A DNA stretch of 42,419 bases, taken from IMG/VR virus record IMGVR_UViG_3300010373_000076, positions 1 to 42,419 of that record, one strand, 5' to 3'. The position numbers were made by a program, and so were the translations under genes. Shown in pieces: positions 14,465-25,600 of the stretch. The notes under the pieces were generated by a model. That model ran no database searches. It saw nothing but the letters and a program-made list of their open reading frames with translations, and was not told where the DNA came from. Positions within the stretch are counted from its first letter, which is position 1. Each line of letters begins with the position of its first letter. The stretch is from a virus.

Positions 14465-15688
14465 TTAGGCCACCTTTCCGTCTTCGATGGTCCAACCGAA
14501 TTCGCCGGACTCGTCTACGAATTCCGCGAAGATCTGGAAGTCGTGAGCGTCGCCCAAGGCTTCGAGTTCGGCGAGGCCGTCGGAGTCCAGGTCGTTGCCG
14601 TTGCGGACGATCATGATGCGCAGTTCCGGGTTGGAGGCGATGATCATCTTGGCGGAGGCGATGGTCTGTTCGCGGGTGGATGCCTTGCGGAATGGGCGGC
14701 CGTTGAGCAGGACGCCTTCCTCGTCGAACGTCATGTTGTCGACGGGGAAGTTGGCGGCGGCGAGCCCGTCGGCCTTTTGCTTGTCCAAGGCTTCGAGCTG
14801 TTTGGTGAGGTCGTCGGCCTGTTCCTGCGTGGCCTCGAGCTGGAACGCGAGGTTCGCCTTTTCCTTGGCCGTGCGCACCGCTCGGTTCGTTTCCTCCGCG
14901 GTGGCCATGCGCTGGCGCAGTGCCCCTACATCCGGGAGCTCCGCGTGGTTGTCGATGCGGTCGTTGGCGTTATCGTGATCGACTTCGGCCGCTTCCCGCA
15001 GCTTGGTCAAGCGGGCGATTTCGGTGTTGATCCGTTCGATCTCGGCGTTGGCGCGGGCCAGCTCTTGGTGATCATCGTTCTGCTGACGCGCCAGTCCTTC
15101 GGCTGCCCGGATTTCTTCGGCCAGCTCCACCACTGAAACTTCGGCGGCCGGCGCCGCGGGCAGTTCCCCGTACCGGGCTACCTGCGCTTCGAGTTCCTTG
15201 GCCTTGCGGTTGATGAAGGTCCGCTGCTCGAACACATCCTTCTGCGTGGCGGCCAGCTTCGCGGGGTCGAACGGCAGGTCCACGAGGTCGAGGACCACGG
15301 CCAGCTGCTTCCGGTCGTCCAGCAGGGAGAACGCGCCAGCGTCCATGCCCAGGGCGCCGAGCATCCCGTTCAGCGTGGCTTGCGCAACCTTGGATCCGTC
15401 GGACGTCTTCCCGGTCAGGGAGGATGAGCCGTCGGCCTTGTACTTGCGGATCAGCGTCATGCCGTTATCGAGGACGTTGACGACTTCGGCGGTCTTCTGG
15501 CCGTCGCGGACCGGGCGGGGCACGTCCCGCTTGTTGTGCCCGATGATCGTTGCCTCGAGCCCGTCGAGGATGCTGGACTTGCCTTGGGCGTTGCGGCCGC
15601 TGATGGCCACGAGTGCGCCGCGGGGTGCGATCTGCACATACTCGAGACGCTGAAAGTCGGTGAACGTTGCTTCAGTGGTTTTTGCCAT
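14465..15688 (-). CDS. AAA/SMC-like ATPase of the recombination module
   Basis: 407 aa. Walker A is [16 protein letters not shown] (about residues 32-47), as in RecF/Rad50-like ABC ATPases. A central coiled coil (about residues 170-320, Glu/Ala/Arg-rich) follows. The C-terminal half has [20 protein letters not shown] and an acidic end, where a degenerate Walker B could lie ([15 protein letters not shown]). It lies between recT and ssb. Phage ATPases of this kind often accompany nuclease and annealing proteins, but the exact role is not known. The ATG has AGGAG about ten bases upstream. Confidence 0.8.
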
Positions 15689-18364: not shown

Positions 18365-18407
18365 TTGGGCCTGCACGCTTCTCAAGGGAGTGCGGGCCCA
18401 ATTTTTT
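18365..18407 (+). terminator. Hairpin with a T-tract on the plus strand
   Basis: Stem TTGGGCC-TGCAC with GTGCG-GGCCCAA, loop about 13 bases, then TTTTTT at 18402-18407. The T-tract is rightward, although both flanking genes are leftward. It would stop antisense transcription. On the minus strand it is a stable hairpin without a U-tract, so leftward read-through is likely. Confidence 0.55.
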
Positions 18408-18591
18408 ATGCGCTGTACGCGTGCCGATTCAGGAACTGATCAATGGCCGAAGCCCGGATCTTCCACGAGCCCCGAAGCCCTGGCATCTTCGACCCAGCCA
18501 GATCGCCGCGCCGCAACAGCGTGTAGACGGTGTCCGGATGCATGTCGAGTTCCTCGGCTGCTTCCTTCACGCTCAACACCTTCTTGCTCAC
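18406..18591 (-). CDS. Excisionase-like HTH protein
   Basis: 61 aa, starting VSKKVLSVKEAAEELDMHPD. The block VKEAAEELDMHPDTVYTLL and RGDLAGSKMPGLRGSWKI is the standard helix-turn-helix_17/excisionase pattern (winged helix, MerR-like), ending in a helix with IDQFLNRH. Excisionases bend attP DNA and steer the integrase toward excision. Its place near the immunity region in an integrase-bearing phage fits. It could instead be a general regulator. GTG start with GTGA overlap. Confidence 0.75.
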   Translation of the reverse strand: MSKKVLSVKEAAEELDMHPDTVYTLLRRGDLAGSKMPGLRGSWKIRASAIDQFLNRHAYSA

Positions 18592-18909: not shown

Positions 18910-19188
18910 TCAGGCGGTCTTGCGATTTGAAATAGGTTCTTGCGGGTCGAAAAGGACAGTAACGTCCAAGCCGAGTACCTCCGCGATGCTCTCGGCGACT
19001 TCGGTGGTGCAGTCTGTGCGATAGCCGGACACCAGGTGGTTGATGAAGCTGGGGTGGACGCCGACCCGTTTGGCCAACTTGCGTTGGCTGATCTTGCGGA
19101 AGTCCGAAGGGTGTCCCGCCTTGATGGCGTCCATGTCTTGCTTGGTGTAAACGAACGTCTTGAATCGTTCTTTCGATGCGAGGCGCAT
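18910..19188 (-). CDS. Cro-like HTH regulator, first gene of the leftward early operon
   Basis: 92 aa, MRLASKERFKTFVYTKQDMD. The XRE-type helix-turn-helix reads SQRKLAKRVGVHPSFINHLVSG (about residues 34-55), followed by TTEVAESIAEVLGLDVTVLF, the dimer-side helices of Cro/CI proteins. The ATG at 19188 has GAGG seven bases upstream; an in-frame extension to 19380 would run through operator DNA and is rejected. Divergent from the repressor, it is placed as Cro is in lambdoid phages. Confidence 0.82.
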   Translation of the reverse strand: MRLASKERFKTFVYTKQDMDAIKAGHPSDFRKISQRKLAKRVGVHPSFINHLVSGYRTDCTTEVAESIAEVLGLDVTVLFDPQEPISNRKTA

Positions 19189-19280: not shown

Positions 19281-19413
19281 AGCATCCCATCCCAGTAGGC
19301 AGGTTGTCAACTTGAATCAGGCAAATTGTTTCTTGCAAGTAGGCACCAGTCTGGATGGGCGCCTTTTTGTTAGTAGGCACAACTACTTCAATAAGGCAGA
19401 ATTCCCAGTAGGC
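19281..19413. promoter_or_regulatory. Immunity control region with divergent promoters and operator repeats
   Basis: Leftward promoter: consensus -35 TTGACA (minus, 19310-19305) and -10 GATGCT (19286-19281), 18 bases apart, overlapping CTGATTCAAGTTG. AGTAGG half-sites occur at 19294, 19338, 19373 and 19406, and CTACTTCAA at 19383-19391; two of these form AGTAG-GCACAA-CTACT. The 19338 copy, AAGTAGGCACC, is identical to one near 8962. No clear rightward -35/-10 for the repressor was found. Confidence 0.6.
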
Positions 19414-19468: not shown

Positions 19469-19972
19469 ATGACAAGCAAACTTCCCAAGAACGGCCTCCA
19501 GGCACTCATCCTCAACCACAAGGGTGACCGCTCATACGCCAGACTGTCCGCTGCATGCGGCGGAGTTCCCTCCACCGTCAACGCCCAGCGCCTCGCCACC
19601 AAGCCCATCAAGGACTTCCCCACCGTGGACGTTCTCATGGGCCTCTCCAGGGGCCTCGGGGTCCGCCTCATCGACGTCCTCCACGCCGCAGCTGTCTCCG
19701 TCGGGATGCCCATTCACGCCTCCAGCGACAACGACCTCCTGATCCCGGAAGCCGGCCGACTCCCAGAAGAATCGCGTCGCCTCCTGCTCGACACCGCCCA
19801 GAACATGCTCTGGTGGATGGAGCGAGTCGACGCGGCCGCACCCGAAGGCGTCGAAGATTCTGCCGAAGACGCACCGAACAACATGCACCCCTTCCCGACG
19901 CCGAACTGGGCCCAGGCCGCGGCCGACAAGGGCGAGGCTGGAATCGACCACGACCAGCTGCCTGATGACTAG
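19469..19972 (+). CDS. Immunity repressor
   Basis: 167 aa, MTSKLPKNGLQALILNHKGD. A helix-turn-helix region reads SYARLSAACGGVPSTVNAQ (about residues 22-40), followed by PTVDVLMGLSRGLGVRLIDVLHAA, as in actinophage CI-type repressors. The C-terminal ~60 residues are acidic and contain no Ser/Lys LexA-type autoprotease. This fits repressors inactivated by a separate ImmA-like protease, encoded next. There is no ribosome site, so leaderless translation from 19469 is likely; an in-frame GTG at 19460 is an alternative. It would hold the lysogenic state by binding the CTACTT/AAGTAG operators. Confidence 0.78.
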   Translation: MTSKLPKNGLQALILNHKGDRSYARLSAACGGVPSTVNAQRLATKPIKDFPTVDVLMGLSRGLGVRLIDVLHAAAVSVGMPIHASSDNDLLIPEAGRLPEESRRLLLDTAQNMLWWMERVDAAAPEGVEDSAEDAPNNMHPFPTPNWAQAAADKGEAGIDHDQLPDD

Positions 19973-20034
19973 CCAGTAACGCTTCGGAAACATTCGTCAC
20001 AGATTCGACTAACTGACGCCTACTGCCCATAAGG

Positions 20035-20050
20035 TCGAACATATGTTCGA
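20035..20050. promoter_or_regulatory. Perfect SOS (LexA) box overlapping the protease start codon
   Basis: TCGAACATATGTTCGA is a perfect 16-bp palindrome and matches the mycobacterial/Gram-positive LexA consensus TCGAAC-N4-GTTCGA exactly. The ATG of the metalloprotease gene (20043-20045) is inside it, and its ribosome site AAGG is directly upstream. LexA bound here should block transcription of the protease. Confidence 0.82.
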
Positions 20051-20405
20051 AAACGTCTTGGTGCAGCTCAACGTCACCATCATCGAAACCGACCTGCCAC
20101 ATGGCTGGTGGGGCGCCTACGACATCACCACCAACACCATTGGCCTACGCCACAACCTCGCGCCCACCCAGCGGCGCTCCACACTGGCACACGAAGCGGC
20201 CCACGCCGCCCTCCAGCACGACGGCCACAGCCTCGCCCAAGAACGCGACGCCGAAGAACTAGCCGCCGCCTGGCTCATCATGCACTGCGACTTCCAACAC
20301 GCAGCCCGCATCTACAACACACCCACAGCACTCGCGCACGAGCTCAACGTCCTCCCAAGAGACGTCCACGCCTACATGCGCACCATTCTGCGAACCCAAA
20401 AATAA
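20043..20405 (+). CDS. ImmA/IrrE-type metalloprotease (probable anti-repressor)
   Basis: 120 aa. The gluzincin motif HEAAH is in RSTLAHEAAHAALQHDGHS (about residues 45-63), and the downstream acidic ligand region is ERDAEELAAAWLI, exactly the ImmA/IrrE (DUF955) pattern. In ICEBs1, ImmA cleaves the repressor ImmR after DNA damage; here the neighbour is the repressor. The start lies within a perfect SOS box, so expression should depend on LexA release. AAGG is eight bases upstream. It is followed by the integrase after 13 bases. Confidence 0.85.
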   Translation: MFENVLVQLNVTIIETDLPHGWWGAYDITTNTIGLRHNLAPTQRRSTLAHEAAHAALQHDGHSLAQERDAEELAAAWLIMHCDFQHAARIYNTPTALAHELNVLPRDVHAYMRTILRTQK

Positions 20406-20418
20406 GGGGGGCCCCACC

Positions 20419-21525
20419 ATGGCAACCGGACGCGTCACAGACACCTGGCACCTCAAAGACAAAAAGACCCGGTCCAAAAGATACGGCATCGGCAAACGCT
20501 GGCAAGCCGTCTGGACCAATGACCGCGGCGACGAAGAAAAGCGATCATTCGAAATGAAGGACGCAGCCAAAGCATGGATCGACGCCAAAGTCATCCAGAA
20601 CGCCCTAGACCCCAACGGCATCAAACCCGACATGCCATTCACCGAGTACTGGGACATCTGGCGGGCCGCCCAACTGCACCAGCGCAAATCATCCCTCAAG
20701 ACCATCGACTCCCACGCCAAAAACTGGATCCTTAAATCGTTCCAACACGACTGGATGCACTCCATTGACCGACCCCGCATCCAAGCCGTCGTGAACGAAT
20801 GGGCCGCGTCGGGGCTCGCTTCATCCACGGTCTACCTGATGTACCGGTACGTGCGTGGCATGATGTCCGACGCCGCACTGAACAAGCAGATCCGCGAATT
20901 TCCCTGCGTGAAAATCAACATGCCGGCAGGTGACCGGAAACGAATCGTCCCCTTGTCGATTGCCCAGGTCCAGCAGATCGTTAGCAAGCTCGAGGAACCG
21001 TACCGTTCGGCGGCGATCTTTGCTGCAGCAACCGGGCTCCGGCCAGCAGAGTGGAGGGGGCTCACGGCCGAATATGTGGATCTGAATCGCGGCGTGGTGA
21101 TCGTCGAGCAGCAAGAGCACCTGAGCCGCATCGCAAAGCCGCTGCTGGGCCCGCTCAAGAATGATTACTCCTACCGTGACGTGACCATCGGGCCCAGGAC
21201 GTGCGCGTTGCTCGAGCCCTTGCTTGCGGCGCCGGGAGCCCTCGGTTTGCTGTTCCACGTGAAGGGGTCGGTGATCACCGGCGGCCGGGCGGTCGGCGCG
21301 TGGACGGAAGCGCGGGGCGATCTGCCTTGGATGGGGCCCGGGTGGCACCAGCTCCGCCACCATCATGCGTCGCTGCTTATTGCGGGGGGAGCGTCGCCGG
21401 TGGCGGTTGCTCACCGGCTGGGGCACAAGGATGCGAACGAAACGCTACGCACCTACGGGCATTTGTGGGCGGATGATGAGTCGAAGCTGGCGGCAATGTC
21501 TGACGGGTTGGTGGCTTTGGGTTGA
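20419..21525 (+). CDS. int: Tyrosine integrase
   Basis: 368 aa tyrosine recombinase that inserts and excises the phage genome at attP/attB. The N-terminal arm-binding region (about residues 1-60) and SAM-like core-binding domain (about 70-165) precede the catalytic domain. Catalytic residues seen: Arg in ATGLRPAEW (about 210), Lys in GPLKNDYSY (about 250), HxxR in WHQLRHHHASL (about 310-320), His in VAHRLGHKD and the nucleophile Tyr in TLRTYGHLW (about 350). The ATG follows a GGGGGG ribosome site. It shares orientation with repressor and protease, so it may be SOS-induced with the latter. Confidence 0.95.
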   Translation: MATGRVTDTWHLKDKKTRSKRYGIGKRWQAVWTNDRGDEEKRSFEMKDAAKAWIDAKVIQNALDPNGIKPDMPFTEYWDIWRAAQLHQRKSSLKTIDSHAKNWILKSFQHDWMHSIDRPRIQAVVNEWAASGLASSTVYLMYRYVRGMMSDAALNKQIREFPCVKINMPAGDRKRIVPLSIAQVQQIVSKLEEPYRSAAIFAAATGLRPAEWRGLTAEYVDLNRGVVIVEQQEHLSRIAKPLLGPLKNDYSYRDVTIGPRTCALLEPLLAAPGALGLLFHVKGSVITGGRAVGAWTEARGDLPWMGPGWHQLRHHHASLLIAGGASPVAVAHRLGHKDANETLRTYGHLWADDESKLAAMSDGLVALG

Positions 21526-24662: not shown

Positions 24663-24845
24663 ATGGTGCGCAAATCGTTTAAGTTACAGCAACGTTATGG
24701 ATACCGGACGGTAGTGATGTTTGGCCTCGGTAGGGTTGGAAATTCTATTGGGTTGATCTTGGGGGAAGTGTTGGGTAAAAGTATTGTTCGACAGATCGAA
24801 GCAAGCCTCTGCGGCGTGACGCATCAAGCGGGTGAGACTCGATGA
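24663..24845 (+). CDS. Small plus-strand protein coupled to the acyltransferase
   Basis: 60 aa, MVRKSFKLQQRYGYRTVVMF, with a hydrophobic/Gly patch (GLGRVGNSIGLILGEVLGKS). It has a strong GGGAGG five bases before the ATG and ends with an ATGA overlap into the acyltransferase gene, so the two are likely co-translated. The DNA here is visibly more AT-rich than the flanks, a sign of separate origin. The alternative is that this is only the leader and promoter region of the acyltransferase. Confidence 0.42.
   Translation: MVRKSFKLQQRYGYRTVVMFGLGRVGNSIGLILGEVLGKSIVRQIEASLCGVTHQAGETR
24753..24787 (+). promoter_or_regulatory. Candidate promoter for the acyltransferase
   Basis: Two overlapping 17-bp-spaced pairs: TTGATC (24753) with TAAAAG (24776), and TTGGGG (24759) with TATTGT (24782). 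Either would give a leader of roughly 50 bases before the ATG at 24842. Confidence 0.35.
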
Positions 24846-25600
24846 GGAAGCCGTTGCAGCAGATCCAGCAGGCACTTTCGAAGAACCGTGTCTTCCTGAT
24901 GGGCGCGGGGGTGGGCCGGATTGAAGAAACCGGTGCCGCCTTCAAGAAAGACCAGAGCATCCAGATCCAGGAGAACATCGCCCTGGAGCCATACACCACG
25001 TTCTGGGGCCAGAGCGGCCGGAACCTGGTCACCATGGGATCGTTCAGCTACACCAACTCGGTACTGCCCATGAGCGTTTCCCTGGGCCGATATTGCTCCA
25101 TTGGCAGCAACTTCAAGGTCCTCGGGGCGCGGCACCCCAAGGAGCGTGCGTCCACCAGCCCGGTCTTCTACAACCAAAAGCTTAAGATGAACACCTTCGC
25201 CAAGGACCATGGCGTGAACCTATCCCCGCAGCGCTACGAATACGATCAGGATCCCATCACCATCGGCAACGATGTGTGGGTCGGGGACGACGTCACCTTT
25301 GGCCACGGCGTGACCATCGGTGATGGCGCGGTAGTTGCCGCGGGCTCCTTGGTGCTTGATGACGTCGAACCGTTCACCGTTGTCGGCGGCCACCCGGCGA
25401 AGCCGATCCATGACCGGTTCGGCTGGGAGGCGACCGATGCTCTGACGGATTCCCAGTGGTGGAGGTTTAGCCCCGAGGCCATTGGGCATCTGGATACGAC
25501 CAATCCGGAGGAATTCGGGATGCAGGTTCAGGAGCTCCGGTCCGCGGGAAAGATCGCTGTGTACAAGCCGGAGCCGATGAGGGCATCAGACTTCGCGTAA
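24842..25600 (+). CDS. Hexapeptide-repeat acyltransferase (CatB/Vat-like), probable lysogenic conversion gene
   Basis: 252 aa left-handed beta-helix acetyl/acyltransferase. Hexapeptide repeats are visible in VSLGRYCSIGSNFKVLG and in ITIGNDVWVGDDVTFGHG followed by VTIGDGAVVAAGSLV, and the classic end VGGHPAKPIHDRF, as in xenobiotic acyltransferases and sugar O-acetyltransferases. It lies on the plus strand between leftward lysis and tail genes, with a UUCG-type terminator behind it. That arrangement is typical of morons expressed in the lysogen. Possible roles are modifying a surface sugar (receptor exclusion) or a small molecule; the substrate is unknown. Confidence 0.87.
   Translation: MRKPLQQIQQALSKNRVFLMGAGVGRIEETGAAFKKDQSIQIQENIALEPYTTFWGQSGRNLVTMGSFSYTNSVLPMSVSLGRYCSIGSNFKVLGARHPKERASTSPVFYNQKLKMNTFAKDHGVNLSPQRYEYDQDPITIGNDVWVGDDVTFGHGVTIGDGAVVAAGSLVLDDVEPFTVVGGHPAKPIHDRFGWEATDALTDSQWWRFSPEAIGHLDTTNPEEFGMQVQELRSAGKIAVYKPEPMRASDFA

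Follow-up and report, generated by a model that had tools for sequence, protein, structure and literature searches.

How could DNA damage in the host be signalled to a phage repressor that has no autoprotease of its own? This question is raised by the switch region of a 42,419-base stretch of viral DNA (the window), whose virus is one of a family infecting Arthrobacter-like soil bacteria. A sequence-only reading of this DNA had described a repressor lacking a LexA-type autoprotease directly upstream of a protease gene, and this description holds: the repressor matches PHROG 12831, and Pfam detected in it no autoprotease domain of the LexA/S24 kind. The features of the region are collected in Table 1.

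Table 1. Predicted features of the switch region (window coordinates)
Feature	Position	Strand	Remarks
HTH_17 excisionase-like gene, start approximate	18406..18591	-	Pfam HTH_17 2e-12; PHROG 66 excisionase
Divergent Cro/C1-type HTH gene	18910..19188	-	Other side of switch; Pfam HTH_3 1.3e-8
Putative repressor operator array AGTAGGC	19294..19413	.	Direct repeats at 19294, 19338, 19372, 19407
Phage repressor, HTH-like N-terminus	19469..19972	+	167 aa; PHROG 12831 'transcriptional repressor', E=1.4e-10; conserved C-terminal tail AADKGEAGIDHDQLP
Inverted copy of putative repressor operator (CGCCTACTG)	20017..20025	-	Just upstream of protease -10
Predicted -10 hexamer TAAGGT (TANNNT)	20030..20035	+	7 nt before ATG; register kept in 11/11 loci
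LexA (SOS) box TCGAACATATGTTCGA, predicted	20035..20050	+	Spans -10 end, predicted +1, start codon
M78/ImmA-IrrE-type zinc metalloprotease, putative proteolytic antirepressor	20043..20405	+	120 aa, HEAAH
Tyrosine integrase	20419..21525	+	PF00589 8.5e-13; PHROG 1 8e-54; starts 14 nt past protease stop

A small M78 protease

The HEAAH metalloprotease of the sequence-only reading was confirmed: its product matches PF06114 (Peptidase_M78) well above the cut-off (44.8 bits against 22, E=1.3e-11) and PHROG 87 (metallo-protease), with HEAAH at residues 50-54. Pfam and PHROG thus place the protein with M78 proteases, and neither placed it in the Tum/DinI or Gifsy antirepressor families. The AlphaFold model (pLDDT 94) has PprI/IrrE structures as its top PDB matches in Foldseek (8sln, 8slm and 3dti; prob 1.00, TMq 0.56-0.63, E 1.1e-3 to 3.2e-3). 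The protein contains little beyond the catalytic domain and is without the extra domains of IrrE/PprI (120 residues, against 240 or more in PprI). Such a reduction fits control by abundance, and the damage signal probably reaches the virus by way of protease transcription, as the sequence-only reading had inferred, and not through the repressor.

A perfect LexA-type box at the protease start

The sequence TCGAAC-N4-GTTCGA is the LexA box of mycobacteria and their relatives. The earlier claim of a perfect SOS box with the start codon inside proved exact, since TCGAACATATGTTCGA matches this consensus without a mismatch, as a perfect 16-bp palindrome, and encloses the protease ATG (20043-20045). 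It is the only perfect occurrence in the window, where the other sites with at most two mismatches are just those at 15267 (two mismatches) and 38691 (one). Taken alone, a single perfect site per 42 kb is suggestive; a chance origin is excluded by the identical position of the box in 10 further distinct loci.

Counts of perfect boxes in two host genomes were uninformative as a test, these 16-mers being scarce in both (one each, against three to five in the reversed control). A scan of viral contigs for TCGAACNNATGTTCGA gave many matches in coding frames, with no M78 protease recognised among the matches listed, and bears neither for nor against the LexA-box case.

Conservation of the box across related loci

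A search of related prophages for the box at the same position had been proposed from the sequence alone. We drew relatives from annotated phages, IMG/VR contigs, bacterial genomes and 398 Micrococcaceae genomes, and found a LexA-like box at exactly -8 from the protease ATG in 10 further distinct phage or prophage loci, which form the closest clade. Nine of these boxes have no or one mismatch, and that of L204 has one. The boxes read TCGAACACATGTTCGA in L009 and again in L010/L011, TCGAAAGTATGTTCGA in L012/L018, TCGAATCTATGTTCGA in L017, TCGGACTCATGTTCGA in L019, TCGAACTCATGTTCGA in L020, TCGAACATATGTTCGA in L021, TCGAATACATGTTCGA in L022, TCGAATGTATGTTCGA in Glutamicibacter phage BIM BV-113 (L003) and TCGGACCCATGTTCGA in L204.

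Among 10 of the 11 sequences (the near-identical L009 was left out), mean pairwise identity is 93% in the non-coding left arm of the box and 94% in the right arm, against 39% in the upstream non-coding DNA and 47% at third codon positions. In BV-113 the arms are even lengthened to 13 nt, still perfect. In a tree of 36 M78 proteases the ten box-bearing rows form one clade (support 100/99), and no box was found at the protease start in the remaining 26. This confinement to a single clade points to one origin followed by purifying selection, rather than to repeated invention.

Phage TripleJ (L004) has a different palindrome, TGCCCCATGGGGCA, at the place of the LexA box (1986-1999), at the annotated start of a related protease (41% amino acid identity). 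In two Renibacterium-like prophages (L201/L202) it is the repressor gene, and not the protease start, that is preceded by a strong LexA-like site, TCGAACATATATACGA (score 21.7); this may be another wiring of SOS control, or an operator of that phage's own.

Match to host lexA and recA operators

The regions upstream of lexA in 24 Micrococcaceae genomes contain sites of consensus TCGAAC-ATAT-GTTCGA, often paired about 67 bp apart, and the window box is identical to this consensus. On a LexA matrix built from 32 distinct lexA-upstream sites of these genomes, the window box scores 28.9, above every lexA site and with the next-best window site at 16.4, although these scores lean towards the consensus because the matrix sites were chosen by likeness to it. 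Low scores were obtained for the boxes of L019 (16.2) and L204 (14.7).

The preference within N4 (A-T/C-A/G-T) and the tolerated variants are independent of the matrix seed. Host operators also contain the variants seen at position 6 of the phage boxes: the lexA site of Arthrobacter sp. MYb214 (G002), TCGAAAACTTGTTCGA, has an A there, as does the box of its own prophage (TCGAAAGTATGTTCGA), and a T is found at one of the recA sites of the host group, which read TCGAACACCTGTTCGG and TCGAATATCTGTTCGG. Since the preferred N4 ends in AT and is followed by G, the box can provide its own start codon.

Host LexA thus very probably acts on the protease promoter and start codon. The sequence-only reading had stated that host LexA directly gates the phage anti-repressor; the LexA part of this statement is strongly supported by the position-specific conservation, the identity with the host lexA consensus and the independence from phage operator type (see below), and the antirepressor role is putative.

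A predicted leaderless promoter shared with the integrase

The box overlaps a predicted promoter, such that the operator would cover the -10, the +1 and the start codon. Each of the 11 distinct loci has a TANNNT hexamer whose last base is the opening T of the box, and 7 nt separate this hexamer from the ATG; the hexamers are TAAGGT, TAAGCT, TATCTT, TATATT, TACATT and TAGTTT. Several box-bearing loci also have in common a block around TAAnTGTCG. We found no classical sigma-70 consensus promoter, including a -35 element, at the protease start. The spacing of -10, box and ATG is the geometry of leaderless actinobacterial mRNAs, and we therefore propose a leaderless promoter: the protease mRNA probably starts with the A of the ATG or with a base beside it. 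A leaderless lexA is documented in M. tuberculosis (PMC2897130).

The protease probably has a promoter of its own, since in L017 an extra gene (MGFFARLFGKTVE..., at about 2390-2938) lies between repressor and protease while the box and the protease are intact. The distance from the protease stop to the integrase start is -18 to +14 nt throughout the eleven loci (the L020 sequence is cut after six integrase codons), and because of this constant adjacency the protease promoter probably drives the integrase too, the two genes probably forming one transcription unit. A scan for terminators gave matches at chance level only. Further along the window, a lone plus-strand gene within the minus-strand late region (24842-25600) encodes a hexapeptide-repeat transferase (PF00132, 3.5e-11) and is likely lysogenic-conversion cargo.

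Repressor types and putative operators vary around a constant box

A repressor with an HTH lies directly upstream of the protease in nine of ten loci (window included, L204 left out), the exception being L017 with its inserted gene. The window repressor gave no Pfam match, including any similarity to ImmR or DdrO, and one relative gave weak HTH_3/HTH_31 matches. Its AlphaFold model has an all-helical N-terminus and a mean pLDDT of 66, and its PDB matches, to XRE-type proteins only, are weak (best E at least 0.1); this model is too weak for a fold assignment. In an alignment of eight relatives, the repressors split into several types by their DNA-binding part. Their C-terminal tail, AADKGEPGxDPEQLP, is by contrast largely constant: it is much better conserved than the linker and recurs in repressors that differ in DNA-binding part and operator. 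This tail is a candidate recognition site for the protease.

The repeats between the divergent genes vary with the repressor type: the window, L009 and L010 have AGTAGGC, BV-113 and L020-L022 have GGTTATCACT, and L012 has CGGTAGGCA/TACCGGTA. The LexA-type box does not occur in these intergenic operator arrays and is constant whatever the repressor type. Such constancy beside variable repressors and repeats argues against a phage regulator, and a constant host factor would be the simplest reader of the box. The inverted AGTAGGC copy upstream of the protease -10 is kept in L009 and is missing from L010 and others, and we therefore dropped repressor control through this copy as a general feature.

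Proposed mechanism and alternative explanations

We propose the following model, which we regard as likely: a LexA-gated, leaderless protease-integrase operon whose protease inactivates the repressor, leading to prophage excision. In the lysogen, LexA bound to the box would cover the -10, the transcription start and the ATG, and keep the operon off. Upon DNA damage, active RecA would promote LexA self-cleavage and the operon would be transcribed. The small M78 protease would then build up and inactivate, most likely by cleavage, the phage repressor encoded next to it, and the co-expressed integrase, together with the excisionase, would excise the prophage. What the sequence strongly supports is the promoter logic of this model: the presence and position of the box, the way it matches LexA sites of the host and is conserved, the register of the promoter and the order of the genes. 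That LexA occupies the box, that the SOS response induces the operon, that the repressor is cleaved and that the operon serves excision we infer. That the protease cleaves its neighbouring repressor is probable by family and synteny, in analogy to ImmA/ImmR and IrrE/DdrO.

LexA could also control the protease without the neighbouring repressor being cleaved: the target may be another protein, for instance a host factor or the Cro-like regulator, or the integrase may be the key SOS-induced gene. The sharing of the protease unit by the integrase in all eleven loci would fit this, as would the absence of Pfam similarity to ImmR or DdrO in the repressor. However, the adjacency of repressor and protease is the standard ImmR-ImmA order (PMC6872733), and a nearly constant repressor tail beside a variable DNA-binding part is what would be expected of a protease recognition site; we consider a different target, or a primary role of the integrase, unlikely. 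That the box instead serves as operator for a regulator of the phage, either the repressor or the divergent Cro-like protein, its likeness to LexA sites being incidental, appears quite improbable. Promoters of antirepressors are often under phage operators, as in Listeria, where its own CI-like repressor represses mpaR (PMC6872733), and around the divergent Cro-like gene the window and BV-113 have 66% DNA identity; yet the box does not occur in the intergenic arrays, stays the same across repressor types and equals the consensus of host lexA sites.

It is more improbable still that the palindrome is no operator at all, arising as a by-product of a conserved MFE protein start (ATGTTCGAA) and a conserved -10. 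The right half of the box is indeed coding (M-F-E/D) and the -10 hexamer includes its first T, but the CGAA of the left arm lies outside both the coding sequence and the -10, and this arm is highly conserved amid poorly conserved DNA. The extended, perfect arms in BV-113 and the lack of the box in other M78 clades also speak against such a by-product. Codon bias for GAA was not informative as a clue to the MFE start (213 GAA and 186 GAG codons over the counted genes).

Comparison with known systems

LexA-controlled antirepressors include Tum of coliphage 186, AntC of N15 and GfoA/GftA of the Salmonella Gifsy prophages (PMC3121763, which cites Shearwin 1998 and Mardanov and Ravin 2007; PMC12637031). 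They resemble our model in that host LexA represses the antirepressor gene, and the SOS response inactivates a repressor that is not RecA-cleaved. Tum and GfoA/GftA are described as binding the repressor and not as proteolytic, whereas the putative antirepressor of the window is a predicted metalloprotease; their hosts are enterobacteria, and the window box, unlike theirs, covers a predicted leaderless start.

In ICEBs1 (ImmR/ImmA), Listeria (MpaR and a CI-like repressor; PMC6872733) and TnSmu1, a repressor gene is likewise followed by an M78-type protease gene, whose product acts as an antirepressor; in the window this role is putative. The repressor-protease pair of ICEBs1 and Listeria is autoregulated by its repressor, while the window protease has a predicted LexA-type promoter of its own and is linked to the integrase. 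Mitomycin induction in Listeria requires the SOS response, and the available text mentions no LexA site at mpaR (PMC6872733).

The closest solved folds belong to the Deinococcus IrrE/PprI-DdrO system, in which an HTH repressor is cleaved upon damage. PprI, however, has 240 or more residues, extra domains and an SOS-independent response, in contrast to the 120-residue catalytic domain under an SOS box in the window. Host LexA also acts on phage promoters in GIL01 and CTXphi (PMC4551915; PMC12637031), where LexA and a phage protein repress the prophage directly; in the window, LexA would gate a putative antirepressor.

No report of a LexA-gated ImmA-type (M78) protease or antirepressor was found among open-licence papers. 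LexA-gated antirepressors are thus known, and a LexA-gated proteolytic one appears new. ImmA-type proteases are common in mobile elements; in the described cases the protease is made with the repressor, under the repressor's control, and the damage input is ascribed to the protease itself. Here the damage input would be written in the DNA, as an optimal LexA operator on the protease promoter, joining two induction logics known separately, the LexA-gated and the proteolytic antirepressor. This can be tested in culturable soil bacteria and phages, among them Arthrobacter sp. MYb214, Paeniglutamicibacter gangotriensis and Glutamicibacter phage BIM BV-113.

More tentatively, and with somewhat more doubt than confidence, we suggest that the locus may be a conserved SOS adaptor module: a LexA-gated leaderless operon, with proteolytic antirepressor and integrase, whose protease reads the constant repressor tail, so that the DNA-binding specificity of the repressor and the operators could be exchanged with no change to the damage input. 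The constancy of box and tail beside variable operators leads to a prediction of cross-induction: if such a module exists, the protease of one prophage could induce heteroimmune relatives sharing the cell.

A similar LexA-like box encloses the start of genes of another family, of about 81 residues (MFDKVSYRIEG...) and unrelated to the protease, in five loci (L068, L085, L093, L098 and L130). Their -10 is TACTAT or TAATAT, in the same register as in the protease loci, and the family is a candidate for a leaderless SOS-gated gene of other mobile elements.
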